DNA from: Marchantia polymorpha subsp. ruderalis
Lineage: Eukaryota > Streptophyta > Marchantiopsida > Marchantiales > Marchantiaceae
NCBI GenBank assembly: GCA_037833965.1
Contig: AP031353.1
Location: 4,156,501 to 4,220,500 of the forward strand
Direction: 5' to 3'
Length of the DNA: 64,000 nucleotides
A program made the position numbers and the translations under genes. Below, one piece after another: positions 7,044 through 61,755 of this stretch (the first letter of the stretch is position 1; each line of letters starts with the position of its first letter). The notes beneath the pieces were generated by a model. The model saw nothing but the letters and a program-made list of their open reading frames with translations. It was not told the DNA's origin and did not search any database.

Positions 7044-7972
7044 AACTTTATATCTTTTGCAACACATCTTGAATCATTTATCATATTCAAAACAAAACTT
7101 AGATTAACTTTTTTAAATATCATAAAGTAATAATATTATTATTATTCATAAAAACATCTAGAAATTTTAATTTCAAAAAAGCGTTCATAACATGACAATC
7201 AATGTAATACTACATAATCAACTCTACACATCAAATCCAATTGATGATCAAGCATTCAAGATTCAAGAAATATAAAAAAAAGTTAATTATAAATATTTTT
7301 GTCATAAAATATGTAAAATTTAATTATAAAAATATGAATGAAGTTAAGAAAATATTAAAATAAAATTTCTAACTAAATTAATTACACAGAAAATATGTTC
7401 ATTTTTTTGCAAAATAAAAGGGATTTTTTTCATTTTAAGTACTAATTCTAATAAAATTTGCTCATCATTATTTAAATGTAATTATAGTAGCATAGCAATA
7501 GTGATAAAGCCAACTATAATTATTATGTTCATCAAACTCGAATACAGCTATATACGATGTTACGTGAACAATGTAGACTTGTGCAACTCTGCAGATTTAT
7601 GACTAGTCAGAAATAAAAGAAAAATTTCTATTTATACATTTTGAATTCTTTCTTGATGACATTGTACCATTGAATAGCGTTAAATGACCATGGTATATAA
7701 TGACGTCTAAGATAGATGATGCTTTTAGAATTTTTTTTAAAAACCCATTCACTATGAAATATAAACATGTTATTGATTGGCCGAATAGTCCTTACATTTA
7801 TATTTATTTGTTTCTACGGGTCCTCTAGCCGATTTTGTGTTTTTCGTCCAGGAGGCTTGCCGGCTTTGGGCTCTGGCCTTAGACCTTGGGGCAGGCTTAG
7901 AAGATGGATAATCAACTTTAAAAATATCAATTTTTCCTATGTTAGTCTTCTCTTAGAGATGTTTGGATACTC

Positions 7973-8191
7973 GTAGACTATTCTACCAATCTGTTGTGTT
8001 GAGGTTCTTCACAAGTTTTATAGTCTTGTTAATCATATTCATGTCGTAGACTATTCTACCAATCTATTTTGTTGAGGTTCTTCACAAGTTTTATAGTCTT
8101 GTTAATCATATTCATGTCGTAGACTATTCTACCAATCTATTTTGTTGAGGTTCTACACGAGTTTTATAGTCTTATTAATCATATTCATGTC
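7973..8191. repeat. 73-bp tandem repeat, three copies
   Basis: Three near-identical copies start at 7973, 8046 and 8119. Each begins GTAGACTATTCTACCAATCT and ends in CATATTCATGTC. The copies differ by only a few bases, which suggests recent duplication. Confidence 0.93.
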
Positions 8192-9904: not shown

Positions 9905-12900
9905 TCAATGAGGCTCATCTCCACCAAAATCATCGACGTCCGACTTTCTCCTCCCGTGGTTTTGAGCTTGCCATTTCGTGGAGGAGCTCTGAAGGTTTGC
10001 AAGTTCTTTTGCTGATTCCGAGTCGAGACTATTCACAGAGCTTCGGAGCGCAGGAACCCTCACAGCCAGGGTCTTGTAGAGGCGTGTATATCTTGCACGA
10101 GTCCCATCAGCTGACCTTGCCAAAGCTAGATTGCTAAAAGCTTCTGGAACTTGAGACAAAATTTGCCTGATCTCGTCTAGTGACAGTCCATTCAAGGCCG
10201 AGGGAGAAGGAACAACAGAGACCACCTCTTTCCCGTTCTTATCTTGCAACCTCGCAGTGGCTTTCACCACGAGCTCCAAGGATGGTGTGGCACCGCACTT
10301 CAAAACCAACGGAGTGGCACTCCCGTTGTTAAACTGGAGAACACTCCACTGCACGACATCGCCATCTGCATCTTCCAAATCGCCAGAGGTTGGAGGTGCA
10401 TCAGAAGACTCAGACATAGACGACTGCGACCTGTGCTGATGGTCGTTCCCAACCTCCTGTATAGATTCGACAGCTTTCTGGGCTTCTCCTATGGCCCTTT
10501 GTGCACATGCATAATCTATGGGGAGCAGAGTGGGCATTCGCTCGGACAGAGTGCTCATACGACCGGACAGAGACTTCTTCAGACTTGAACTTCCAGCTTT
10601 CTGCCGAGCTTCTCGTATAATGTCATCCGCTTGCTTCAAAATATCCTCGAGAGAAATGAGTGACGCTATACGTGCATCTTCGTTTGCAGACGAGGGCGTT
10701 CGGAACGGTGAACCACCTTCCTCTTTGGTCAGCAAAGCTACATCGGAACGCATCTGCTGCATAACTTTCCGGCGCTTGTGCTCTACTGATTCGAGCCCGG
10801 ACCTCAATTGTGCGACCTGCGCTATTTCTTCTGCTTCTTCAGTTGCTAGAGTTGCGGCCACATCTTTCAAGTGCTGCAATTCTGAACTGTAGACAAGCTT
10901 CGTGTAATCTGAAAGCAGCTGTCCCAAAGCATCCGTGCTGGGACGTTGAGGCACACCGAGACCAGACATCCACCCGTCCATAATGGCAGTTGAAAGAGAC
11001 TCCAGTTGGGCCTCTACTGATTCGCCATTGGGAGTAGCAAGAGGATCGAAGTTCTGGGACAACCAAGCCCGGATCTGACGCTGGAGCTCACCAGCAGGAG
11101 TGTGCACAAACAGAGCAGCTAGAGCTTTATTCCCAATAGCATAATATCGGGCATCGTCACTCGTTTCTCGGAGCTTACCTCCGGTCAAATTTTGTTGCGC
11201 ATGTTGCTGGTCACCACCCCTAAGCTTGCCGAAGAACGAAGAAATTTTCGATTTTTTCTCCTGCCCTAAGTTAACCTTAAACCTCGCCAAGTGATCATCG
11301 ACGTTGGATTTCGAGTGATGAAAAAGTTTGGGAGAGAGAAGGGGAGCCCTTCCTGGGCTGCTCTCTCTGCTGCTACTTCTCCGGCTTGGTGTTCCTGAAC
11401 CAGCTCTCTCGAGAAACTTTTCCACAGGTGGGAGCTGAATCGCCTGCAGCTCACTAGAACGAGAGCACAGTGATCTTATGTAGAGAATTCGCACACGAGA
11501 CACGAGCATGGTGTCCATGACGGCCCGGGACTCCATTCTTCTTATAAAAGTGAACACAGCATCACGAATTTCGGCCAGCATTTCATGCTCTCTTGCTGCA
11601 CCGGCTTTGATGACCGCTGCCAAGACTAGCATCAGGAGCTTGTTGGCTCCGTCACCGATAGCAGCAGGGCTATCATACTGGTCGGGATTGAAATCCAATA
11701 GTGCAGCGCTCAGATACTCGCCCGCTGGAGTGCTCTTCACACTCAAGAGGGCAGATGGTGGAGTGGTGACCATGGTCCCAGCAGAAGGATCCTGACGGGG
11801 AGGAGTAGATACTTCCCTGTCCATGGCAGACCCGTGGCCACCGGGAGAACGATGGGCACTGTCTTCTGAATCCTTGATTCGCTGCTGCTGCTGCTGCTGC
11901 TGCTCAGCCAATGCGGCATTGCGGGCGCTCTCCATTGGTTTGGTGAGCCGCTCGAACAGTTTCTCATTCTCTTCGTGAAGCCTCTCAATCAGCTCGTCCC
12001 TTTTCGCGAGCTCTTCTTCCAGTCTCTTATTGGTCAGAACAGCCTCCGAGATGGCTTGTTTGGCCTGTTGAAGCTCCCAAGCCTGTGAAGACCTGGTGAT
12101 TCCGTCGTCCACCTCCTTGGACTTCTCCTGTGAGTTGGCCTTCTGCAGTGCACTCAACAGAGTGGCGCATTGCTCGTCCGACTCTTTCAATGCTTTCTCC
12201 AGCCTCTGATTTTCTTGCTCCAGCTTTGCAATCTCTTTCTGCTTCTCGGCAAGCTCCAGCTGCGCATCCTCTTGAGCGCTTGAAGCCGCCGACTTGCTTC
12301 GGGCTCGAGTTCCGAAGTTGATGCTGGATAGCGTCTCGGCTAGATCCAGCGAACAGGGGCTGACATTGACGATCACGAGAGTTTTGTTATCCCCGCCGAG
12401 AGAGTCGGCCAGGACACTGGTCAGCAGAGAATTTCTGTAGGGCACATAATCCTCCTTAGTAGTAATGGCTGCAAGCACATCCCCGAGAACGGTGATCGAC
12501 GCTTCCACCCTGAGATGCTGGTCGCTGGCGGGCATATCCACGAAAGATATCTTGCTTTGGTACTTCTCCCTCAACAGAATATTCGTGTGGTGGATGTGAA
12601 TCGTTAGAATCAAGTACGAGGTCGTGCTCTGGTCGAAGCTGAAATTCTCAACAGCACGATTCCTCGTGCCCGTGTTGAAGACACGCGAGAAGTCTCGGGC
12701 ACTGTCAATCCTCTCGCCGACGAGCTTCAGAGTTCGACCTACCTCGCCCATCTCGGCCTGGAACGCCTTGCTGGGATCCACCGAGTGCTGGAGAAGATCC
12801 TTGAACTGCTCATCCTGCAGCTCAAACATGGTGACATGGAACACGGTTCTCGACGCAGGAGAAGCATCGACATTCGACAGCTGAAACAACTCTTCCACTG

Positions 12901-13533
12901 CCCTGTAGAAAAGGCCTGGATCCCGGCTCGTCCCCTCGAGAGTGTAAGTCTTGCCCGTGCCCGATTGACCGAAGGCAAAAATCGACACATTGAACCCATC
13001 CAGAGCAGACTGAATCATGGGCTGCACATCCTCGAAGATGTCCACTTGCCCAATGTGCGGACCATAAACGCGGTCAAATTCGAATTCCATCTTGCCCGGG
13101 AGGGTGGAGCCGGGAGTCGCCGGAGGAGTGAGCCGGATCGTGCTATCGCTGGGATACGAAGTGATGACAGGGCCTTCGTCTTCGAACTGCGGCCGCACTC
13201 GACAATGGACCTGCACATTTCCTCGTTGGTTCAGAAGCTCGTTCAGCAGCTTCTTGCGCTCGTCCCGAATCGGAGTGACGCGAGCTTCCCAGTCCAGCGC
13301 AACTTGGTCCAGTTTCCGAGCTTTGTCCGACAGCACGCCCAAGTACCGAGTGGCTCGCGTAATTTTGACAGTCGAGTATTCCTGCAAGTCACTCGCTTCC
13401 TGCCTGAGCTCCAGACACTCCATGCGTGCATTGGCCAGCCTCTCTTTGAGAGTCAAAATCTTGCTCGTCAGCCCTGCGTTTCCTTTCAGAGACACTCGTC
13501 GACTCGGTTGCGTCCGATAGGCGCCAGTGGAAG

Positions 13534-13564
<31 letters not shown>

Positions 13565-13684
13565 TTGATGTTGATGTTGCTGGCCTTGTCCCGCCATCTC
13601 GTCGTATGTGTCTCCGTGAAATACGTCCGATGCCTTCCGGGCCTCGACGGACGAGTTCCAATTCCAGCTATTCCTCTCTGCCAT
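9905..13684 (-). CDS. KAC: KAC-type kinesin-14 for actin-based chloroplast movement, single exon
   Basis: The 1259-residue protein matches plant KAC1/KAC2 along its whole length. It has a disordered N-terminus with a His/Gln tract (residues about 37-50), a neck coiled coil with the family block LELRQEASDLQEYS (91-104), a kinesin motor fold (about 157-462), a coiled coil (about 470-590) containing RDELIERLHEENEKLFERL, and the KAC-specific C-terminal half (ANKLLMLVLAAVIKAGA; NKALAALFVHTPAGELQRQI; TADGTRARYTRLYKTLAV-like end). The P-loop GQSGTGKT is intact (239-246). Switch I lacks the SSRSH signature (FDQSTTSY, 350-357) and switch II reads DMPASD instead of DLAGSE (383-388). In the family, KAC proteins act on short actin filaments at the chloroplast periphery rather than as conventional microtubule motors. 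The start is the first ATG of the open frame and gives the expected family N-terminus. No intron interrupts the frame, although angiosperm KAC genes have many. Confidence 0.95.
13529..13572. repeat. CAG/CTG trinucleotide tract coding the KAC His/Gln run
   Basis: A CTG run followed by GTTGATGTT-type repeats codes, on the minus strand, the His/Gln tract just before the conserved KAC neck. It lies in the disordered N-terminus. A second, shorter CTG run at 11881-11903 codes another Gln run after the motor coiled coil. Confidence 0.85.
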
Positions 13685-15880
13685 GTCTGTCTGTCGAGAC
13701 GGTCCGAAGAGATTTCGCCCACAGCGAGAGAGAGAGCCTGCGCAAGTGAAGCTCGCTCACTGCCGCGCGCACCACTCCGCTGCTGCTGCTCTCCTGCCAG
13801 GCCCACACTACAGGGACTACAGGGTTCGCAATCCTCTCCTCATGCCGCTTCCTTCCTTCAGCGCCGAGCTCCCACGCAGCAGCTTCCCATACCAGGCGCG
13901 CTCCCTCGTCGCAATGTCAGGGCCGGCTCGGTCATTGACTGCGGCAAACATGGCGCGAGAATGAGAAAAAGGGCGACAATTTGCACGCTTCGGCTTCGAC
14001 GAGCACCTGCTTCTTCAAGGCAGAGATCAAGGTCCGAATGAAGCGCAATCAAATTGGCGACAAACGCGTGCAGAGAGAAGACAAGAAGCGCGCGACAGGC
14101 AGACAGTCTGTTCAAACTACAAACCTCATCATGGTGCGGAGAATAGACGGACATTCTCCTTCACACGGTCAAGGCAAATGATTCAAATCCGAGCTTCTTC
14201 TTCTTCTCACTGTAAGAAAGAAAGGACCCCAACAAATGAGCAAGTAGACCAGGACGCACCGAACTGGACACGGAAAAACACAGAACCTCGAAAACAACGC
14301 AACCCCAGAAATTCAATCTTGCCATTTCCCAAAACCCCGGGACGCACAAGACGACCTCGAGCGACCGCACGAGACGACCACGAACGACGAACGACAAAGC
14401 AAACCGACCGAACGCAGCACGACGATTTCGTCCGTGAGGACGAAATAAATCTCTGGAGCCCACGAAATTCCCCCGTCGCGCATTGCCATCACTCTACATT
14501 ACTCTATTTTCGATCTAGATTCCTCAGAGCAAGCTCCCACTCTACAACCACCACCGCCACCAGCAGCAGCAGAAAACGCCATCACCGTAACACATCGACC
14601 TGCAAAAATCAATCACTCACTCCGAGGAGAGTAGGAATTTGTTTCACCTGTCGAGCGACCTAATCCGACAAGCGCATCATCCATCCTCTCGAGCTCCGCT
14701 GCCTTGGGGCCACTGCCTCTGCCTCTGCTTCTGCTGCCTCGGCCTCGCTCGCTTCGTCCGGCAATTGAAGCAGCAGCGGGGGGGGGCCTGCTAGACGGCG
14801 CGCGGGCAGGCAGGCGCTCCTCCTCTTCTTCCCCCTCAGCGCCTCACGCTCCACTGACTACTACACTACTACGACGCTCGACGAGCGGCCTCCAGATCCT
14901 CCTCCCTCCCGTCCGCCGTACCACCAAATCCAGCCGCGGAACCAGCGGACCGACCGACAGACCGCGCTCCCGAGCTCGCTCCCTCCATCCGTCATGCCGT
15001 TTTTAATATTCAAAGGCTCGCGACAGAATTAGCAATTGACGTTGCTCAGTCCCGCGCCCCGGAGGGTTGGCAGATCGGCGCATCGACGGCTGCAGGCCGC
15101 TGAGCGCACAGGTGGTGGAGTTGCGCCCCTCGTCCGACTGCGACGCGACATCGAGTTCGTCATCCTCGACAGATTCGCGGGTCGCGGAGATGGGAAGCCT
15201 GCGAGATGCTCCCGGCCGTCGATGCTCCGATCCGCTGAGAATCTTCAGTTCCACGTCGGCCGGACGAGCCAGATCACCTTCTGGGTGTAACCGGCTGTAC
15301 AGTGGCAGCCACAGAAAGGGTTGTGGCCACCCGCTCGCTCCGAGACTCTCCTGACCATCATCAGTCTGAAGTCGCCTTGCGACCGCCCTATCAGACCGGA
15401 AGATACAGCTCTCATCTGTTAGAATACTCCCATATCTGACAGATAAGACACCAACCACATCGCCTCATTACTGAGCTGGACCGGTATACGACGTCGAGCC
15501 TTACTCCGCTCCAGCCAGCGCAGTAGACTCGACAACCATAACGTCATATAAGCTCGGATAAGCGATGGCAGCCTACCGTATCCAGTTCGGCCTGTCCGTA
15601 TGCGGCTTGCATATAGGACAGGGTTCCACCTGATTGCCGCTACGCAGTTTCCGGTTTCCTACTGCAGTGACTGCGAGCAGGTTTCATGGTGAACTGCGTT
15701 CTGTCTGTCGATCACCTGGAAGGATCTCCTGGACGGGAATGAATATTGAGAAGCTGCCCATTGCGGTCAACATGCTCTTTTGACCATTGACGGAAATAGT
15801 TATTTTGGTCAAAATTTCACGCAGGTGAAAGAATGTAGGCTAGTATTAACCTAGTGCCGACCCTTTTCAGCCAATTCATG
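13685..15880. other. Upstream region of KAC: probable promoter and 5' UTR
   Basis: GC-rich DNA immediately 5' of the KAC start codon (KAC is transcribed leftwards). It holds trinucleotide runs, a small inverted repeat at 14427-14446 (TTTCGTCC, GTGA loop, GGACGAAA) and a poly-G run near 14780. A minus-strand open frame of 151 codons (15003-15458) has a plausible acidic/serine composition but no recognisable domain, and overlaps equally long plus-strand frames, so I do not call it a gene. I assign no transcription start. Confidence 0.4.
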
Positions 15881-30956: not shown

Positions 30957-31051
<95 letters not shown>

Positions 31052-32849: not shown

Positions 32850-34376
32850 CTAGATTTCGGAGGAGGGAAGTTGTTTACTATTCTCAGTGTCCACGCTCTC
32901 GGTGGCATTCGAGGGCTGTATCGTCTCGTCTTGCACCACCTCCTGCGCCGGGGTGCTCACCTCTGCTGAAAGTGGGGCGTTCTCCTCAACAGCCACGGGC
33001 GCCGATACCACCACCTCGTCAGGCTGAGCAGAAGAGGAGGAAGAAGAAATTGTACTCACTCCTTGACCTTCGATCGGCGCCACAGGAGTAGGAGGAGGAG
33101 CATCAGCAGCATCAGCAGCAGGAGCAGCAGGAGGAGGGGTAGCACTACGACGTCGTTCTGCACTAGGCCTTCGCTCCTTCGTAATGGGCGCAGCAGCAAC
33201 AACAGGAGCAATGGCAGGAGCGATGCTACTCACCCTTCGTTGTACCTGTTCCGCTGCTGCCGCAACACTAGCTCGTCTTTCTGTTAGAGCTGCCATGATG
33301 CTGCCTCGACGTTCTCGTTCTCGTTCTCCTGCTCCTCCACTAGCTCTGCGATCACCGCTAGCGCTCGGCTCCTCCACTTGTAAGGTCACACTCTTCCTTT
33401 TTCCGGCCTTTCCGGCTTGGGCTGCCATAGCAATGGCTCGGTGTTCTTCCAGAAGCGCAATTGCACTCATAGGCTCTCCTCGTCCCTGCTCCTGCTCTGC
33501 AGCATCCGTAGCACTGCTGGGGGTCGTGATCCCTGCAGAACTATCCATCGAGATAATCTCATTCTCTTGAGGGAATTTCTGAGCCAAGTCAGTAGTGCTT
33601 CCAGCTCCAGCTCCAACACCAACACCAACACCGCCCGGGGATTCGAGTCTGCTCCTGCTGCTGGAACGCCTCCTGGGTGCGGCTGCGGTGCTGGGCCGCC
33701 GTGGGAGGGGCATGGCAGCAGCAGTCGTGGGGTCTTGAGCTGCCGGGATGGCCGTGGCGTCGTCCACAGGGGCGTGAACCAGAATGCTGGCGCTGCGGGA
33801 TCGAGGGAGGTAGTCGCCCGACACTTTGCGCTGGTCTCGGGTCAGGCGAAGGATCTCCTTGTCCTTGGTGGCGATCTTCTTGCGCAGGTCGATGACCTCG
33901 ATGTTCAGGGCCAGCATTTTGGCCCGGTCGATCTCGTCCGGAAGCTCGGACGACGACGACCACTGCCGCTGCTCGCCCAGCAGCTGCTGCGTGAAGCTGT
34001 AGCGCAACGACGCAGCTTGCGGAACCGAGCCCCTGTGGGCGTACGGTTTGACGATGTTGGCCAGAGGCGTGCTGGAGCGAGACTGCTCGCGCACTCGTTC
34101 CGCATCGTGCAGCAGCGCGCTCTCGAATTTGGCCTGCTGCAATGCGCTGGCCGTCGATGTTCTCGAGCCTCTTCTGGACGAATTCGATCCTGCCGAGTCT
34201 CCCGTCACATGCGCCGATGTCGTCTGCCTGTGTTTGGCCCACGGCGTGTTCTTCGAGCATCTGGAGATGGACGAGCTCCTCTGATCCAGCATCGGGCTCA
34301 CCAGCGATGCTCTCGCTGCACTGAACACCGACGGGCACTTCTTCGCTGCTATCGACTTCCAGTACGCCATTTCTCC
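32850..34376 (-). CDS. Ser/Arg/Ala-rich disordered block: terminal exon of CFAP57, or a separate gene starting at 34370
   Basis: One open frame of about 508 codons ends at 32850. A short coiled coil (MLALNIEVIDLRKKIATKDK and following, near 33830-33930) sits where CFAP57 proteins have a last short coiled coil. The rest is low complexity with many basophilic-kinase-like sites (RRPS, RRRSSS, RRGS, RRAS, RRVS, AHRGSVPQ). For one gene: a phase-0 acceptor (GTGTGCAG, exon from 34376) fits the phase-0 end of exon 22, and the HRGS/RRGS motifs echo the exon 16 repeat. For a separate gene: an ATG at 34370 has a good plant context (GAAATGGCG), and CFAP57 is already near full length at exon 22. The frame stays open upstream to about 34460 and beyond. 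I favour one gene only slightly. Confidence 0.6.
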   Translation of the reverse strand, partial: GEMAYWKSIAAKKCPSVFSAARASLVSPMLDQRSSSISRCSKNTPWAKHRQTTSAHVTGDSAGSNSSRRGSRTSTASALQQAKFESALLHDAERVREQSRSSTPLANIVKPYAHRGSVPQAASLRYSFTQQLLGEQRQWSSSSELPDEIDRAKMLALNIEVIDLRKKIATKDKEILRLTRDQRKVSGDYLPRSRSASILVHAPVDDATAIPAAQDPTTAAAMPLPRRPSTAAAPRRRSSSRSRLESPGGVGVGVGAGAGSTTDLAQKFPQENEIISMDSSAGITTPSSATDAAEQEQGRGEPMSAIALLEEHRAIAMAAQAGKAGKRKSVTLQVEEPSASGDRRASGGAGERERERRGSIMAALTERRASVAAAAEQVQRRVSSIAPAIAPVVAAAPITKERRPSAERRRSATPPPAAPAADAADAPPPTPVAPIEGQGVSTISSSSSSAQPDEVVVSAPVAVEENAPLSAEVSTPAQEVVQDETIQPSNATESVDTENSKQLPSSEI

Positions 34377-37300
34377 CTGCACACGCACCCTTCCCTCCTC
34401 AGTCAATGATCCCAAGCGCTCATAATCCCACACATCCGAATGTTCTGGTTGGTGTAGCAATTTGAACCGCCTGAACGTGGTCCTGGGTGACCATTGTGCT
34501 CAGTTTTTACTCGCTCAGATCGAGGACGCGATCGTTATGCTTGAAGCATCAGCTCAACTATTGTACAGATACTAGAAGACTACGACATATGCCTTTGTTA
34601 GCTTCATAAAATCTGGGGTCCAAGCACTCCTCCAACATCCTCCTCCAACGAGGAGGATGTTGGAGGCAAATAAAGCCGTGCTTATAAATCAGCTCGTCTG
34701 GAACGGGGACGCCAGGATTTCTGTCAGTGGTGGTCTTGCATGACGATATTCAGGACACGATGGCACATCCATCACCAGATCCGAGATGCTGAGGAAACCA
34801 AAAAGTAAGTAGAACCCAATGAAGAAGAACGCAATTCTACCTCATATATCAGGTAATCGACTCGTATATTAGACTTCATGTGCTTCTCCAGGAACGAGTA
34901 CAACACCATAGCTCGTATTTGTACAGTGGGGGGCGAGGGGTGCAGAATGCAGCCAAAATGCAAACTCGAGTTGAAATAAAGTAACGAAGGGAGCCCAGTA
35001 CGTTGGGACGGGAGCTCGTCGAGCTGTCAGTCTGATACGAACCTGATACTTCTGACTGAGAAAAGCTAAGCGCCTGACGTTGCGTTGCGCTTCTCCAAAC
35101 TCGTGTAGCAAGTCGATGTTTTGCTGCATGTAGTGCCTCGAGTCGTTCCAATTTCGTTCCTCGCTTCTGGCAATTTCGCGTTTAAGAATCGCCACGAATT
35201 TTTCCAGATTCTCTCTGCATGCCACACCGTCCAGCTGAGCATCAGTATTCCCGGTTCACTGCCAGCGTGCCAATCGAAGTCGCCTTTCCGGCCGGGTAGT
35301 TCGCCTCTCAGATACGCAACTCACTCAGCATGCTCGAGAAGAATTAAGCTAACGTGGAGAACGCTTCTCAGTGCTTGTCGTTAGCAGTGAAATCATTTTA
35401 AGCCGTTTCTTCTTAGCACTGAACAGCTGCAGCGTGAGCCGGATTTTCCGTTTCAGAATTCCTTTCAGATTCCTTTCGGCTCTCGAAGATTTGGAGAACA
35501 CTGGTTTCAGACAAAAACATTATCGAACCCGACTGATGCTCCTGAGAAGAAGGCAAAGAAAGGCGGCTCCAGAATCCGAAAGTTCCAAATTGTGGTGAGC
35601 TGGAAGCGCCACAATCTGCGTGATGATGGCTCGACTCCCGACGCCAGTGCGAGAAGAGTAGAGATGCCACTCTGCCTTCAATGAAGATGAGCTAAGAAGC
35701 GGGTACCTGGCAACTGCTTCACCTCGGGGTAGACAATGGACCAAGCATTGCATGGAGGATAAAGAGCTCGATGGAAACAAGATTCAGTTGCAGCACGTAC
35801 CTTTGATGCAGAAGGTGAGTGTAGGTGTCGGACCCTTCTGCAACAGCTGTGCGATGCACGTCCTTGACGTAAGTGAAATAGAGCTGTTTCGTAAGCTGCG
35901 GCCACTCTGCAACTTCATGCTCCTGTACCAAGCGACATAAGGCCTGAGTGAACATGTTGACGTAAGAGTCCCTTTCGTGCAGTTGGTTTTCGAGCTCTTC
36001 GGCTTCTTCCTCGAGATTTTGAATCTTGGCTCTCAGAGCTGCTGCTACCAGTCCTTGCCGCTTCATCTCCAGAACGTGGCCCAATTGATGGCTCTCCATT
36101 TCCCGCAGCTTGCTGCGCAATTCAGCAGTCGCTTCTTTCAACGGACCTTCGACCTTTTTGAGCTGCAAGCCATCATTTCTCGGACATATGAGCTCTTCGG
36201 CACCTCTTATACATAATCTTAAGTCACATAAACTGCCTCCTGTCATTGCTAGGGATTCAGTTCTGTGCCTTGTGGATCAGATGGTAAACTTCAATCGATC
36301 CAAGGAAGGCCACAAACAGCTTGTACGAAATGGTGTGCACCTGCTTGATTTTGAAGTCTCGGACGACAGTCTTCGTCTCCTGATCTTTTCTTTCGGAGAC
36401 AAGATGTTGGCTCTTCTCCTCTGTTTCTATCAAGACCTGTCGCAGTGTCCTCTTCTCAAAGTCGAGCTCAGTGGCAAGCTTTTTCAGAACTCCGACTTCC
36501 TTGTTTAGTTTCTCTATCGTAGTGACGTGAGCTATATGAGCTTCCTCCATTTCTTTCATCTGTTTCTCAATGTGCATGACATTTCTCTTCTCCGCCATCA
36601 AAGAATGGTATATGCTGTCAGCTCGATCTTTTTCGGCACTCACATCATGGTTCAGCTTTTCAAATGCCTTGTTCAGCTCGTCGTCACTTATAAGCAGATC
36701 CTCTTCCATTTCCAGCTGAAGCCAAGAGTCTACATTAGGTCGGAAAATGAACTTGCGATCAATTCGCTATGATCTTTCAGTACAGTGGGCACTTTCAAAA
36801 CGTCAGCTATGAACGTAGGACGAGACGTAACCCATGATACAAGAAGAACAAGGAATTCTGCTGAAGATGAATCTTCTCTACTGGGCAGAAGGCTAATTTC
36901 GTCCTCTACAATTCTAGGCTCCCCTGTAGTACTTCATTTATACTTCTGGTGCCAAGAGAGCTTTGCAAGCATGTATATTAACAGCTCACTCCCCAGACTG
37001 ATCATCTTTCTGCGGGATGAGCGGTTCAGATGGGATCGTTGGATTGACTGGTATTGGTATCGAGTGCCAAGCGAGAATCTTTACTATGCAAGTAAGCCGA
37101 AACGGGATTCCCCTCTAAAATCAGATGCACATATAAGACGTGTTTGGATTGCAGAGTTGGAAGGAACCTTGTAATGTTCAATCTCCTTGTTGCATTCCTC
37201 CCTAACTTTATGCACCCTTTCATCTGCACGGGCCTCTGCGTCTTCCAGCTGGCGTTCCAAAGCAACGAGCTTCTCCAGATAAATGTTCTCTTTACTCCTC

Positions 37301-40300
37301 ATTTCATTCTCGAGAGTCGTTCTATCCTTCTGCGCTTGCTTCCTAGAGATGTGTGATCTATCCAACTCTTGTGCTAGCTGCAAAGGAGCATAGTTCCAAA
37401 TTCAAAGGGAGAAATCCTGGAGGTAAAGTGACAGGAAAAGGGAAGGAACCGAGGTGCTTAAGGGAAAGACGAAAATGCAAGCAGATGAAGAAAAACGTTA
37501 TAGATTTCTTCAACGTGTTGACTTCGGTGATTTGCTTTGACCTGAAAGTACTATAATCAGGGAAATGATTCTGAGGATGTGAAGAGTTCACCTTGTCCTG
37601 GAAGTAATCTTGAAGCTGCTGAGTGGTTTCGCTGTGAGCATTTAGGAGACTCTGAATTGTAGCCTCCTTCTCACTTACAGCAGTATGAAGGTTGTGTTCT
37701 AGAATTTTCACCTTCACAATGTAATCTTTTTCTCTGGCCAAAAACGCGGTCTCCCTCTCCTTCATCTCACAGGCCCAGTCTAACTCATCCCGTTGATGTT
37801 TGAAGTAAGCGTCTTTAGCCTCCCTTGCCATTTTCACTTTGAACTCCTGACGACCAAGATCCAAAGCCAAACTTTAGTGAAAAGGCAGAAAAGTGCATCG
37901 GACTATGGAATTGTAGTATACAGCCAGTCATCTGTACAGGCTGTATAATATTGTATAATTGTATCAAAGAATGTATAATTGCAATTTTAGGCGTAAACGA
38001 TCAAATTTGTATGGGCAAAGGAGCGAGTAAATGATTCAATTGCTCTGCAAATCTACCATGCCTTCTTCGTCATCAAACAACTGCGAATCGGCAATTTCGG
38101 CCAGGGGGTTTTCTTGACGAGCGATTCTCAACGCATCCCAGAGGTATTCAAAATCGCTAATGAATCCCTCATCCCAGGGCGCTGCAGCTGCTGCAGCTGC
38201 AGCGCAGTGCGTTGCGTTGCGCACGGCCTCTTGGGCCGAGCCGGGCCTTGAGCCGGCATGACGCAAGTTAATCAATTAAAAAAATACTCCCTGTATCAAT
38301 ACTGCGTGAGGCTGTATTAAACAGGGTTGATACATACAATTCAATACCTCGGACGGACCAGACCTGGTTGACATGTAAACTTCGGGGTCCAGGGAATGAT
38401 GTTTCAGCTGTGGGGAACGAAACTCACAATCAAATCATGTTTCATTTCATCCACCTCATCTCTTTCCAATAGCAAGTTATGGGCATCAGAGCCAGCGTCG
38501 GTCAGATAAAGATTTATTAAAGGCATATCTGGTGGTGGTACTTCTGGAGGAGGTGTTTCATATCCATCTGCATCCTCTTCTTTTGCACCCACAATGTCCT
38601 GTTCAACCGCTGCCACGAACAAAGCACCGCTGTTTGAAGATGCAAAAATCAAACTTCGCTCCACGTCGAGGCCTAGACCAGTAATTTCACCTGGAAGCAT
38701 CAATGGTGTTCTGGCTTCAGGCACATTCCGGCCTGTTAGTAGCTTCGTCAACCTCTTAGATGAAAAGCATATGGAATCTGTTCACATGAATATATCACAA
38801 CATACTTTTGCTGAAAACGACTTGCAATAGTCGGACTTTTAAAACAGGTGCACGACGTACGTGGACCTGATATGCGGTTTTACCTGATGGGAAAAGAATC
38901 ACCTCTTTGAGAAGATTAGGTTTATCTCGGGAAAAAGGGTACGCATACAAGCGCAGGTCTCCATTTGGTGCCGCTGTAATGAGCAATCCCTTTTTGAACA
39001 ACCCGACTATGAAATTGACAGGTTTTTCCAGTGTTAACTCAAATATACAGTTAGACCTATATCTGTGTTGCACCCAGCTACCCTCTAAATTTGTGCCGTC
39101 GCCCTTCTTGGCTTCAACTCTTTCCTGCACCTTCTCTGGAGCCTTTGCAGCATACGTAGAAGTCTCTAAAACATTTTCGGAACTCCCACGATTAGATCTC
39201 TCTGCACGCTCTCTTTGAATCTCGAGTAGACTCCCACGATGAGTTCCCTGTACACTCCCTCTCTGACTCTCTTGCAGACTACCACGATGAGATCCGTGCA
39301 CACTCCCTCTTTGACTCCCTAGGTAACTCTCTTGAGTACGTCCACGCTGTCCACTACCTCTTTGACTGTCTTGTACACTACCTCGGTGGCTATCTTGAAC
39401 ACTTCCTCGGTGACTGTCATGGATACTACCTCGATGACTCTCATGAATATTCCCTTGGGCATCTCCTTTATGAACTCCTTGAACACTTCCTCGGTGACTG
39501 TCATGGAAACTACCTCGATGACTCTCATGAATACTTCCTTGGACACTCCCGCGATGACTTTCCTGAATACTCCCTCGGACACTCCCGCGATGACTTTCCT
39601 GAATACTCCCTCGCTGACTCCCTTTACTTGTCCCTTGTACTGAGCTACATTCACTCCCAGGAGGAGAGTCATCTGGTTCTAGCTCACTGGATGTTGCCAA
39701 GATCTCTGGGAGAAATTTAAATTCCCTCCCATAAGACAGTCCAACTTTCTTGTCTGTATCTATCACTCGTATGGGCAGCGTAGGCCCACATGAGATAATG
39801 CATGTCCGTGCCGGGTCGAAGAGGAGACAGGTATGAATAGACCCCTTGATGACATATTCCAGGTAGCGATGCCCACCATCCAAGAACCAGGCATATATAG
39901 CACCATCTGCACCTGCTGATGCCACATACATAGAGTCGGAGGACCACGCGAGCGTTGTAACAACTCCAGTATGACCCTATCAAGACAGTGAGGCCAAAGA
40001 TTGAGATAAAGCTTAGATATCTAACTCTCTGGTTAGTGATCTCAGCACGTGAATGGAGCAGTTTTATAGCTGTGGTTCGCACCTTAAGAATGGCGGAAAC
40101 CTTCCAGGTATAGGCATCTATGAGCACTATCTCCCTAGAGTTTGCAGCTGCTACCAAGTGACCACTCGGACTGTACTTTAGATGCCTGATATTCTTCATT
40201 GAACTAATGTCTTTACAGTGTTGAAGTCTGTACATAGCAAATCACTGTATATCAGAAATTTTGACTTTCGTACTTTCAAGGTACTAGAGTCAAAAAAGTA

Positions 40301-43300
40301 AACTGCCTACATGACCGCGATCAGATACTGCTCTTTTCTATCACACTTTTAGGGATCTGGTAAGATCAGCCAGCTCGAGTTTTCAGAGACTCCTAACAAA
40401 GGGTTAAATCCAAGAAAAATAGTCGTGAGCAGTCTTGAAAATTATGGTGTCCCTAGATATCGTGATGTAAGAAATATTACTCTGTCTTTTCTTTCCAACT
40501 CTGCAGACTCGTACTCCAATGCTATTCACGAAGAGAAAACTGCTTGGATCTGGATCTCACTTGTAACCAAGAATGCGATAGACCTGGATGCACCGTGCCA
40601 TCGTGACGAACAGGTAATGGCCCCAAGGGCTTACTGTCACCAGCTGCGGCGCCTCATCACATCTGGATCCAAACATTCATCGTGGTTGCAGCTATCAAAC
40701 TTAGGGAAAAGTCCATTCTAAAAGTTTATATGCATTGACTATGTGGATGGTATTTCTATCTGCAAATCCTTTTCCGATGTATTCTACTGGACTAAGCATA
40801 GTGTTCCAGCTACCTACAAGCTTGGTCAGGGTAATTTGACCTACTTTTACATAGAGAGCCTCAACATACTGAAAACTATCATAGATACGTGCCTCTACAA
40901 GGATATGAGATGACTGTTTAAGAACGAGATGTACAGGCTCCGCAGAGGAGGTTGATTCCAGAAAGATGCAAAAACTTACAAATGAGCAATCTCGCAAACC
41001 AATTTGTTGTAATTCCAAACTCGTATGATCTTGTCAGCACTGCAGGTAACTACAATCATGCGCTGTTCGCAAACATCAATCCCAGTAATCCCTTTCATAG
41101 TGAAGACTGCACACAGCACATAAGTAAACCGTTAGTGTATGACTTCTACTGAATTTAATTGATATTTTGGATATTTATCTGAGACCAGTACTTATATCCG
41201 ATGGTTACATTGCAGTGGAAACTATTAGGTACTGGAAAGGTTGTATCGATAAGGGTTTAGAAACTCCTGCGTCGTACACTCATATTCGACCCAAAATCAG
41301 GACAGGGGAAGGATGCGAAACCTGATAGATGAACGGTTCTTGCCAGGTTGGTTTCAGAACCAAGAATTGCATCTTCATCCTCAGAGATGTCCAGATGAAC
41401 TTTGAGCACGGTCTCGCCCTGCCAGAATCTTTTCTCGTCAAGATCACGTGTGAGAAAGTACATCCTCATCCCATAAATAAGCCCTCTCAACTTGCCGAAA
41501 ACATCCAAAAATTTTAGTTTTTTTCATTCAGGTCATTAATTTTGTTAAGAAAAGAGAGAGCTGACCAAGACGCTTGGTTTGAATGGTTCTTACGGATGCT
41601 GACCAAAAAAATGATATTCATAAGTTCCAGATAAAATCAAAACCAAAGCAATTGGTGATATATACCTCAACAATATACAAAAGCTTTTCTCCATGAGGCG
41701 GCATAGCAATGGAAGAGATTTGCGAATATCCACTGTAAAGAGATAGACAAAATCAGCGCTGATATATATTTCTAGAGTTATTCTTGTAATTTGAATATTC
41801 TTGTTTGTAAAATCCTTCACAACCTGATCCACCTCAACAAGAACATATATGATGTACTGGACTGAGAAATAAGCTTTCACATTTGTATCTGGAATATTTT
41901 TCCCCATGTACAGCTCGATTACATCACACAAATCAGGTCCCAATATGTATTGACATTTCATATCTGCTTTCAAACCCTACGCAACTACTCCATAAAGGTA
42001 GAACAGCGACAAAAACTTACAGTTCCTAATGACCCCAGGATATGAAAACAAGGCACCTCAGTAGAGTGACGCATTTGACTTCAGCGTAAGGGCTCTCCTT
42101 CTCCTGCCAAGAAAGGCAGAGTATTAGGCAGGCTTGTTGCACGTATGAAAGCAGAGAGAAGTTTATAGCTGATAATGTGAGATGGAAAAAGGCATCATGA
42201 TGAAAATTCAACCAAAGACACAAATATTACCTGCATCTTGACCTTCGCCAGTTCAAATCCGATAAACTGTGTTAAGGTTCCATCAGTTCGTCCACAGAAA
42301 AATCCGCGGCCAATGCTCAACAAACATATAGTGTGGCCGGTATCTGTGTATTTCTGTACATCGCAACGAGTGTGCGTATGATTCAGAACCACTGCAACAC
42401 AACTTCCCCATTTCTTATCTCGAGAGAATTGCTAAAGATCCAGTCAGAGAGGAATATTGGCATTTCCACAATACAGCCAGGAAAGAGGGTGTGTTACAAT
42501 TTGCAGTATGCGTACATGTTGCACAACATTATCTCTCACGATGAATATAAATCCTTCAGCAGTTGATATTGCGACGCTAGTATCAGCCAACCAGACGTGG
42601 TCTGTGATCGTCATCTTTTGATCGTGACGACCATTCAATCCTTGAATGCTCGTTTCTTTTTTAACACCTCCTTGGATGCTCCAAAATTTAAAATGCAGGG
42701 GACCTTCAAAAACCGTTAGGGAAAACTCTTCAGAATAGACATCCTCGCGAATACACCACTACACATTCTCTTAAGCTGATGACCTAGATGCACCTGTTCA
42801 CTGCAGGCATTGTAACACAGATGGCATTGAGAGAGTATGCTATAACCATTGTCATGCACCTGTACATCTAAATCTTGCAGAACGTACCACTCATGGCGCT
42901 TTCTTCATCATCAAGGGGATTGATCGTAATTTTGTTGACTGCGTATGGAACCAAACTAGTGATCAAAACCTAAAACAACACGACCTCTACTTAGAACTTG
43001 GTACTCACATACAAGCAGTTGGGGCTTGAGACCCCAGACTATGATATACGGGAGTATATGACTACTCATCTCCGAGGTTAGACATAGTAAAGTAGATTAC
43101 TAACTCCGCATTCAAATACATCCAATCAAACAGTTCCCAACAACCTAGAGAATGTGAAAGCATGACTAGTTTGAGATTAAGAACGCACCGATGGTATGGC
43201 ACTGAGATACTTAAATGTTTAATACAGCTCAAGGAAGTGAAACAAACTCAGAAACACTTGTACTCTTTAAGACGACTTTCATGTTTAAATTTATCTTGTC

Positions 43301-45541
43301 AGTATTTCTGTGTCATGATAGTTCGTATGAAGCATAAGACCCAGTCTTTAATAGAGATGGAACACAAAATCTAAACAGCTAACAGGTATGTTGTGTGCTT
43401 GTTAGACAATTAATAAACGTTTGACATCCACTCTCAGCCTGTCAGGTGTACAGAAGGATGAAGTTTTTCGAGTCTTCACATGACGTTTAATCTAAATTTA
43501 AAATTCATGATTATCATTAAGAACCGCAAGATTTTACGGTCACTACAGATGTCGAACATACCCTGCCTTCTTTGAGATCCCAGAAGTCCACTTGGGCACT
43601 TTCGTCAATATTGCAAGCAGTTATGACCAGCCTCTCATTCTCCGAAAATGCACAGGCTCCGTACTCTTCAGCATCACAATACAACATACATTGTTATATC
43701 TTCTATTCATCAAGAAGAGACAAGAGAAATCGATCTTCTAACTCCGGCCATTGACTGTCAAAGCGAAAGTGGACGAAAAGAACAATTAGAAAACTTATTT
43801 GAACAACCTTTCCTGGCTTAATTTGCACGAAATACCCGTAAGAGGTTTGTTGCCAACCTCCCGTAACCAACCCTCCAATAGTCTGAACAGCTTCCAGCTT
43901 TTTTACATCAATTATGGAAACCTGCAGTAACAGTGTCTTAAGGCATGAAAACTTGAATCATACGTTTGTAATTGGGTACATAGTCTGGTTGATTAATGTG
44001 TGGGATATCAGCTAGAAAATGGAGCCCGTTGCAGCAAATCTCGCAGTCATTAAGTGACAAATAGAAGTTAGGGGATTCTTATATGATTTAGAAGCAGCTG
44101 AATGAAAATGAAGGACACGCTTGGATGCAAGAGTTGCGAGAAGTACCTGATGATGACCTGTCTTCAACCTCTCACATGCTGCAACTAGATTTCCTCCTGG
44201 TGATGACGTTACCCAAACAATTGACTGAACAAGAACACCGAAAGTCAGAATCGTTCGCTTTAACAAATGTGCTCTTCTGTCGGTGCAGACAGAAGAGCAC
44301 ATTTGACTCTGCAAATTTATGCAGAGTTTGGATAACTCTTCAGTGTCCCACTGAAGAGTTATCCAAACTCGCGTAAATTTCTCCTTTGTCTCTAAGATTC
44401 AATAAACAACCCATTAAGGTAAACTCAAAGTTCAGCTGTTAACTTGCCTCAACAGAAACACTGGATGAAAAGAACCGCATCGATTTTTCACCGGAGACAC
44501 TGCAGAAAAGATGACGGTTTGATGAGTTATAACATATCCAGCTCATGTAGAACACTTTCGCAGAAGGAACTCGGTGGGACAGGTAAAGATCGAATCCTCA
44601 CTTGTGGAAGACGAGACTCCCTCCGATCGCGTAAGCGATGAGATTCGAGTCCACACAAGCAATCTGTGCCCTTTTACCAGGAATGCCTTCGAATCCGAAC
44701 GCATACCTGCCATGCAATCAAATGAAGCACCGGGAGTAAATCTCTGTGACTTTTCTTGTCAATCTGCGTGCAGCATGAATACTGACACTGTGGCTTCTCC
44801 TGTCTTTTCTAGAGTTGTTTGTACAACCATCGAACTTATCAGGCCCACAACATTTATGATATCAAGGTCACGTACAGTGGGTAGAATTTTCGCTGAATCT
44901 GCTTGACCAATCCCGCAGCCAAGACAGGGTCCTGCCATCGGCTCTTACGATGCCTTGACTTAGTCATTTTTGTAACTTCTTCCAGTCACGTTCAATGCAG
45001 CTATCTCACAACGCTGCTTGTTTCGATCGAAGCACCTGAAGTACACCAAATAGAAACCACAGACTCATCTTCCTTCGTGTTAAAATTGTTCACCCAGGTC
45101 CATATGCCTCCGAAAGTTAAGTAGGTTTTAATCTTCTTCCTCTTTTGCTTCGGTAATTTCTCACTTTTAATGAAGTTCCTCAACCAAAAGGCTGCGCTCA
45201 TGGCAATTTCACACCTGCTCCAGCTCAGCTATGGCAGACGACAACGAGCGAGGAATTTTTAGAGGAAAACCTTTCTCAAAAACAATTGGAGCATGTATTA
45301 GGCCGCAAGCAAATCATGGAGCCCAGAGCATGAGTGTTGCTGTAAGAGATGATCTCTCACAGCAATTTCCGATATTTTCTCCCCTTCCTCTCTTACTGAA
45401 CACAATTGTACTCCCGATTGAACCGAGACACCGAAGTCAAATACTAGTGCATTGCCTGCATCGCGCTCCTTTTGAAGCTTGAGATGTTACAAGTTTGGAA
45501 TGTTCTTACTCGAACTTGGCAATCATTTGGCTGACTGACAT
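32850..45541 (-). CDS. CFAP57: CFAP57/WDR65-like axonemal protein: WD40 N-terminal half, coiled-coil C-terminal half, about 23 exons
   Basis: Exons in coding order: 45510-45541, 44602-44706, 44448-44499, 44147-44224, 43808-43921, 43562-43663, 42888-42969, 42516-42703, 42231-42413, 42057-42103, 41666-41732, 41322-41490, 41000-41106, 40870-40937, 40083-40227, 38867-39976, 38428-38754, 37592-37846, 37168-37377, 36341-36715, 35797-36162, 35043-35234, then a possible terminal exon 32850-34376. Phases agree between neighbouring exons. The N-terminus (MSVSQMIAKFEYAFGFEGIP) matches the CFAP57 start; later blocks such as GITGIDVCEQRMIVVTCSAD with IIRVWNYN, IRHLKYSPSGHLVAAANSRE and ADGAIYAWFLDGG are WD40 blades in CFAP57 order, followed by about 450 residues of coiled coil. 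Without the repeat insertion in exon 16 the first 22 exons give about 1300 residues, close to the usual CFAP57 length. In algae and animals CFAP57 supports assembly of a subset of inner dynein arms. Uncertain: exon 13/14 junction, exon 17 start, terminal exon. Confidence 0.87.
34629..34666. repeat. Perfect 16-bp hairpin in the last CFAP57 intron
   Basis: Arms 34629-34644 and 34651-34666 are exact reverse complements (CCTCCAACATCCTCCT and its complement) around a 6-base loop. The hairpin lies between exon 22 and the Ser/Arg-rich block. Confidence 0.9.
38036..38275 (-). CDS. Small open frame of 79 codons inside CFAP57 intron 17, unknown
   Basis: The intron between exons 17 and 18 contains a frame with coding-like composition: an Ala run, then WDEGFISDFEYLWDALRIAR and an acidic tail ending DDEEGMVDLQSN. 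It ends in a stop, so it cannot be an internal exon in this frame. The flanks are AT-rich with short related motifs (CTGTATCAATAC near 38290, GGTTGATACATAC near 38325). It may be a gene fragment carried in a small mobile element, a nested gene or a chance frame. I recognise no family. Confidence 0.25.
   Translation of the reverse strand: MINLRHAGSRPGSAQEAVRNATHCAAAAAAAAPWDEGFISDFEYLWDALRIARQENPLAEIADSQLFDDEEGMVDLQSN
39182..39622 (-). repeat. Coding tandem repeat (octapeptide S-H-R-G-S-x-x-x) inside CFAP57 exon 16
   Basis: Within the 1110-base exon 16, about 146 residues are built from a basic octapeptide SHRGSVQD/SHRGSIHE (24 bases), with variants carrying an extra GSIQ or GSVQ step. I count about 14 RGS cores, written SHRGS, SQRGS, THRGS or SNRGS. 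The stretch is rich in Ser, Arg, Gly, Gln and His and should be disordered. Clear propeller sequence lies on both sides: upstream ADGAIYAWFLDGG, downstream KKGLLITAAPNGDLRLYAY. Animal CFAP57 has no comparable insertion at this position, as far as I know. Confidence 0.93.
44225..44447 (-). other. CFAP57 intron 3: GC-AG intron with three hairpins
   Basis: Read on the minus strand, exon 3 ends GTTGAG and is followed by GCAAGT, the consensus 5' site of the rare GC-AG class. The acceptor is TTGTTCAG before exon 4. Splicing here restores the phase and joins two blocks that are contiguous in CFAP57. Perfect inverted repeats lie at 44264-44281/44288-44305 (18 bp, 6-base loop), 44306-44313/44320-44327 (8 bp) and 44325-44344/44350-44369 (20 bp, 5-base loop). 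Confidence 0.8.
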
Positions 45542-61284: not shown

Positions 61285-61755
61285 GCCTCGGAGACTCGGC
61301 CCGGATCGGAGTCACAGTCCTTCTGTTCGGCACGGATCAGACCCATGCACGCGATGCCGACCGGCAAATATCGGCAGGACATCTGAGGACATCTGAACAC
61401 ACACGAGCAATCCATCCATCCGTTCGTCCGTCCGTCTCGAGTCGGATCGGAGTCGGAGTCCTTCTGTTCGAAAACATCAGTAGGACATCTGATCACACAA
61501 GAGCAACCCATCCACCCATCCATCCATCCATCCATCAATCCGTCCGTCTGGACTCGGATCGGAGTCGGAGTCCTTCTGTTCGGCAATATCCGCAGGACAT
61601 CTGAACACACAAGAGAATTCCATCCATCCATCCATCAATCTGTCCGTCTGGACTCGGATCGAAGTCGGAGTCCTTCTGTTCGGTAATGTCGGCAGGGCAT
61701 CTGAACACACACGAGAAATCCATCCATACGTCCGTCCGTCTGTCCATCCGCGAAA
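61285..61755. repeat. Minisatellite of about 100-145 bp, four copies
   Basis: The block GATCGGAGTCGGAGTCCTTC (with minor changes) recurs at about 61302, 61446, 61556 and 61658. Each is followed by a TTCTGTTCG segment, CAGGACATCTGA, CACACA and a CATC run. On the minus strand several frames stay open through the repeats, giving DGWMDGWM and FRCPADI motifs. I regard this as repeat, not gene. Confidence 0.85.

Follow-up and report, generated by a model that had tools for sequence, protein, structure and literature searches.

Repeat insertions in conserved axonemal proteins raise the question of whether the added sequence has acquired a role or is simply tolerated. The window, by which we mean the whole stretch of 64,000 nucleotides of Marchantia polymorpha DNA that was analysed, offers such a case: a gene that best matches CFAP57 and is predicted to encode a sperm-tail protein, with two WD40 propellers followed by a coiled coil, carries an array of S-x-R-G-S repeats within its WD40 region. 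The following features, given in window coordinates, are the ones on which the analysis relies.

39182..39643, minus strand: array of 154 residues with 15 RGS cores and a 12-bp base unit
38884..39976, minus strand: exon with the array and two flanking WD40-like stretches; open, its phase matching that of its neighbours, the part before the array resembling CFAP57-type chains
40083..44967, minus strand: upstream exons with the first and most of the second propeller; model made by eye with PDB matches, 42057 to 41732 provisional
38428..38732, minus strand: next exon, with the last propeller blade and the beginning of the coiled coil; by-eye assignment, no HMMER alignment
35043..37871, minus strand: coiled-coil exons, joints partly provisional; last exon 35234-35043
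32850..34427, minus strand: probable C-terminal tail exon of 525 aa, frame open from 34499; assigned to the gene by strand and order

Gene model and relation to CFAP57

The spliced model was drawn by eye from GT-AG borders, one of which is GC-AG. Between 44967 and 38428 it reads as WD40 sequence without stops, except for one stretch between 42057 and 41732. As the first-pass annotation of this DNA had it, the array lies in frame within a single large exon: 39976-38884 measures 1093 bp, contains no stop, begins after the acceptor gatag/GGTCAT, ends at the donor TCAG/gtaaaa, and has WD40-like sequence on both sides of the array.

Compared with the sequences in PDB, the WD40 part of the model has as its first four matches (E 1.9e-37 to 2.3e-26) long axonemal chains that combine WD40 repeats with a coil. 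Two of these are labelled CFAP57, one WD_REPEATS_REGION protein (8glv_Cp) and one Dynein axonemal intermediate chain 3 (9fqr_Hy, 1266 aa); the latter label we take to be wrong, the chain aligning like CFAP57. Some of the matches are chains that we assume to be from Tetrahymena and from trypanosomes, and the naming of others as animal or human is presumed in the same way. Judging from these alignments, the WD40 part is closer to CFAP57-type chains than to other WD40 proteins. This identity rests on the full model, because RACK1 and other WD40 proteins score similarly when the array exon is searched by itself. The earlier proposal that the array interrupts the WD40 region of CFAP57 agrees with both the flanking sequence and the best matches of the full model.

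The solved CFAP57-type chains share with the predicted product the order of two WD40 propellers and then a coiled coil, and they are the best PDB matches over the propeller part as well as over the last coil exon. For that exon (35234-35043), joined to the end of its predecessor, there are eight matches, of which the top five are chains that also occur in the list for the WD40 part, at weak scores (best E 5.1e-4); a query with the whole coil gave no PDB match at 0.001. The C-terminal half of the model is a sketch, because three further coil joints and the joint to the tail are provisional and the last segment is joined out of phase. In the literature collection searched, no paper combines CFAP57 with Marchantia.

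Two presumed introns of the model contain perfect hairpins. At 44264-44370 two of them adjoin each other (22-nt arms with a 3-nt loop, 18-nt arms with a 6-nt loop), and the intron before the tail exon has one at 34629-34666 (17-nt arms, 4-nt loop). Elsewhere in the window there are an open frame of 1283 residues that contains a kinesin motor domain (9905-13756, minus strand; Pfam E 3e-61), tandem repeats of about 100 bp and of 73 bp in approximately three copies each (61410-61727 and 7971-8191), and a perfect GA dinucleotide run of 45.5 copies (30959-31049).

Structure and divergence of the array

The array runs on the minus strand from 39643 to 39182 and reads SVQGTSKGSQRGSIQESHRGSVRGS onward, ending SNRGS; its 154 residues are in frame and hold 15 RGS cores. 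The first-pass annotation had recognised the array and placed it at 39182..39622, with some 14 cores in about 146 residues; its start lies approximately 20 bases further. SHRGS occurs eight times and S[HQN]RGS 13 times. Whereas 0.69 RGS would be expected, and none of 5000 shuffles of the same residues gets to 15, the 15 cores do not amount to 15 independent events, because the growth of a repeat multiplies any motif of its first unit. Every RGS serine has an arginine at -2, as had been observed before for each unit.

The base unit of the array is four residues (12 bp), since serine-to-serine gaps are mostly of that size (exactly four residues in 25 of 31) and the DNA resembles itself at multiples of 12 bases: self-identity is 58% at lag 24, 56% at 48, 51% at 36 and 46% at 12, with a mean of 27% over lags 6-199. 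S-[HQ]-R-G alternates with S-[VIL]-[QH]-[GDE], and longer blocks have been duplicated, their copies having diverged. The octapeptide by which the array had originally been described therefore fits only part of it. Growth along a 24-base period, suggested on the same occasion, finds support in multiples of 12 and 24 bases, both from self-identity and from Tandem Repeats Finder, which independently reported the stretch with periods of 48, 24, 84 and 36.

The opposite strand of the array is open as well, over 174 aa. The other frames of the same strand were rejected as coding because WD40 sequence continues in phase from the true frame on either side, and not on the basis of pN/pS. A spread of the array over the genome (241.5 Mb in 9 contigs) was likewise rejected: AGYCAYCGNGGNAGY has 27 matches in 241 Mb, seven of them within the array and 20 scattered elsewhere, against 41 for a reversed-pattern control. 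At E<=0.001 neither the array exon nor the tail has a match in the genome other than to itself, which is no proof of uniqueness because the search scored only the best candidates.

Copies 24 bases apart differ by 0.33, 0.38 and 0.56 at first, second and third codon positions (146 codons), and pN/pS at this lag is 0.55 in frame versus 1.26 and 0.93 in the other two frames. For the remaining five lags the values are 0.65-0.81 in the true frame, 0.99-1.34 in frame 1 and 0.64-0.88 in frame 2. Because the ratio of frame 2 falls below that of the true frame at four lags (4, 12, 16 and 24 codons), these ratios argue only moderately for constraint at the level of the protein. A selection measure on 14 units picked by [ST][HQN]RGS had given a pN/pS of 0.21 for the S-x-R-G-S core, 0.04 for R-G-S and 0.54 for the linker, with 1.34 and 1.40 in the other frames. 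It was dropped for the motif-blind lag comparisons, which are weaker, because the choice by motif partly forces a low ratio and drops slots from which the motif has been lost.

Probable position in the second propeller

The HMMER alignments with CFAP57-type chains stop in the query at ...CGPTLPIRV, or slightly before or after it. Query residues 584, 583 and 581 correspond to residues 580, 578 and 577 of three animal-type chains; in 8glv_Cp the alignment ends with query 598 at residue 547, query 584 being paired with 533. The blade after the array (EITGLGLDVERSLIFASSNSGALFVAAV) gave no HMMER alignment, even with the array removed from the query, and was paired by eye with the last blade of the CFAP57-type chains. 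With this second anchor set by eye, 308 residues lie between the anchors in the Marchantia gene, whereas 9fqr_Hy has about 59 there and 8glv_Cp 62. The insertion is absent at this place from both, the two chains that are readable on both sides, in line with the earlier remark that no such insertion was known from other CFAP57 proteins. The Marchantia gene thus differs from the CFAP57-type chains in this spacing (308 versus about 60 residues) and in its long basic-serine tail. By eye, the array would sit between two strands of the second propeller, in place of a short loop, and it is apparently a lineage-specific repeat loop.

Human Arg588 is 11 residues past the last aligned human residue (577), and by the same placement the insertion would be near its position. 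A change of this arginine in human CFAP57 to a stop is reported to cause primary ciliary dyskinesia (PMC7444499); the product is described there as a protein shortened by 58 residues, which fails to enter the axoneme. Because it would lie near this stop (PMC7444499), the insertion may help to show where the CFAP57 propeller can tolerate alterations.

In a single-sequence structure model of the exon, strands extend to residue 63, neither helix nor strand is found in 64-248, and a short helix and then strands appear again from 281. The model is poor throughout, since its mean pLDDT is 42 and no residue is at 70 or above; it agrees with a loop that is probably disordered, and proves nothing.

R-x-S sites in the array and the probable tail

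R-x-S occurs 15 times in the array, where 4.15 are expected, and 18 times in the probable tail, where 6.54 are expected. The tail also contains ten RR-x-S (0.59 expected), in the contexts RRGS, RRPS, RRRS, RRAS and RRVS. For each of the three counts, none out of 5000 shuffles was as high. The rest of the model, 1223 aa with the last coil exon left out, has two R-x-S (3.81 expected) and no RR-x-S. Within a set of 63 open frames of at least 150 aa, taken from the window and 13 other genome loci, the array frame ranks first and the tail frame second for R-x-S (z 5.8 and 4.7; next 2.7), and the tail ranks first for RR-x-S (z 12.5; next 3.9). Most of these frames have no known coding status, and because many are surely not genes the set represents a background and not a proteome.

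It appears, then, that two sequence-unrelated regions of one gene share the R-x-S motif, the second being a probable tail that strand, order and the preceding coil exon assign to it. We regard this as the strongest new evidence on the array; the excess of R-x-S and RR-x-S in the probable tail is itself new here. R-x-S alone among the motifs tried exceeds expectation in array and tail alike. Motifs of the CK2, GSK3 and PKC types were rejected as a shared feature, being enriched in the array and not in the tail: S-x-x-D/E occurs nine times in the array (2.88 expected) and five times in the tail (8.37), S-x-x-x-S 25 times (6.33) and 11 times (9.7), S-x-R/K 14 times in the array (4.54) and S-x-R four times in the tail (6.57). 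For the array alone, sites of these types are possible. The array has no [RK][RK]xS, and because its serines have an arginine at -2 only, they would be weak PKA sites.

Components of cAMP signalling in the genome

CAPE is present in the genome. The forward MpCAPE primer has one exact match (none for its reversed-pattern control), the reverse primer matches exactly in the adjoining stretch L017, phosphodiesterase domains lie between the two primer sites, and cyclase-like sequence is legible by eye in L017. Searches of the genome with the Pfam profiles RIIa and Guanylate_cyc gave no match; these results do not signify absence, because RIIa was also silent in the control genomes and Guanylate_cyc missed CAPE itself. 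The CAPE phosphodiesterase frame (L013 5701-6240, minus strand) contains one RR-x-S site, KRRASV.

A PKA query hit 118 places in the genome, from which a multi-exon kinase at C2:1.57 Mb, third by E-value, was chosen because of its identity of 51%. By eye, two further places looked less PKA-like or like other AGC kinases, and these were set aside. Among the best 60 of its 156 matches, the kinase at C2:1.57 Mb scores best with cAMP-dependent kinase (5.6e-53), followed closely by cGMP-dependent kinase (6.2e-51).

In M. polymorpha, CAPE is described as antheridium-specific; activity of its promoter was detected in the antheridium, where a cAMP-dependent kinase is said to be expressed as well (PMC5159850). 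MpPKAR is said to contribute to the formation and the motility of sperm flagella (PMC13190419, citing Yamamoto 2024). A literature search by title retrieved no sperm phosphoproteome of Marchantia.

Possible functions of the array

Tentatively, we favour the view that the array is an insertion specific to the lineage and probably disordered, and that a basophilic, PKA-type kinase phosphorylates it at multiple sites. A 12-base, four-codon unit would have expanded within CFAP57 of the Marchantia lineage, with 150-250 residues forming a disordered loop at one propeller face. The R-G-S serines of this loop, together with the R-x-S and RR-x-S serines of the tail, could form a bank of phosphate acceptors. 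The basophilic kinase that uses them would most likely be the cAMP-dependent one kept by liverwort sperm. Phosphorylation would make the loop and the tail, both net basic, neutral or acidic, and through this change of charge it would alter, in a graded fashion, the docking or holding of inner dynein arms by CFAP57 during sperm swimming. The excess of R-x-S in array and tail, the predominance of third-position divergence at the 24-base lag, and the presence in the genome of CAPE and of a kinase that best matches cAMP-dependent kinase speak for this proposal; the multi-site phosphorylation put forward in the first-pass annotation gains indirect support from the probable tail. The near-equal match of the candidate kinase to cGMP-dependent kinase (6.2e-51 versus 5.6e-53) counts against the PKA-type part of this proposal. 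We consider it rather unlikely that regulation goes as far as a cAMP rheostat, in which about 30 R-x-S serines of loop and tail would sum PKA activity and so set the anchoring or output of inner dynein arms in the swimming sperm.

Nearly as likely as a kinase substrate is a passive spacer: slippage or unequal exchange would have enlarged a tolerant surface loop, kept in frame merely for read-through, and the motif would have no role of its own. Such an origin is in line with the clear tandem structure and its several nested periods, with a site that is a loop between strands (placed by eye, in a poor structure model), with the lack of any full RR-x-S site in the array, and with a pN/pS of frame 2 that is equal to or below that of the true frame at four of six lags. 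It accounts less well for the tail, which is unrelated in sequence and yet enriched in the same R-x-S spacing, and for third codon positions being the most diverged at the main period. The latter pattern fits translated sequence and, together with an exon that is open throughout, also argues against the array being spliced out, always or partly, as an intron within the exon, so that most of the protein would be made without it. We hold this to be very improbable, although 96 donor-acceptor pairs in the exon score above a lax bar, e.g. the donor GAG/GTAGTT at 39513 (5.9; median of real donors 5.6) with the acceptor TTTCCATGACAG at 39497 (6.1; real median 5.9). These pairs may be due to chance, because the small matrix was trained on few and inferred sites (21 donors and 20 acceptors of this model), without a shuffled control.

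Slightly less probable still is that arginine is the target, a PRMT-type enzyme methylating the RG dipeptides and the array being an RG-rich binding loop. Fifteen RGS cores in 154 residues would suit this idea, a form of the arginine modification raised in the first-pass annotation, for which the RG dipeptides are the one sign, but the R-x-S and RR-x-S sites of the tail occur in many non-RG contexts (RRPS, RRAS, RRVS, RRRS). The common feature of array and tail is therefore a serine two residues after an arginine, and not RG.

Both main readings have parallels in other classes of proteins. Multi-site PKA-type substrates of the sperm axoneme resemble the Marchantia product in having many R-x-S, in low-complexity sequence and in RR-x-S sites such as those of the tail; the predicted sites of the array differ in that they have no basic residue at -3 and arise by tandem duplication. 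Low-complexity tandem-repeat insertions in loops of WD40 proteins are similar in having a period that is a multiple of three and a position in a loop, the reading of the flanking strands being unaffected, whereas in the present gene the motif also occurs in a separate region.

Implications for sperm motility

The gene described here is a concrete candidate for a target through which cAMP signals could act on the axoneme of plant sperm. Many sites are predicted in its single product, and the liverwort is genetically tractable. If the rheostat were true, the liverwort would possess a layer of control on the dynein scaffold that is without counterpart in animals and green algae.
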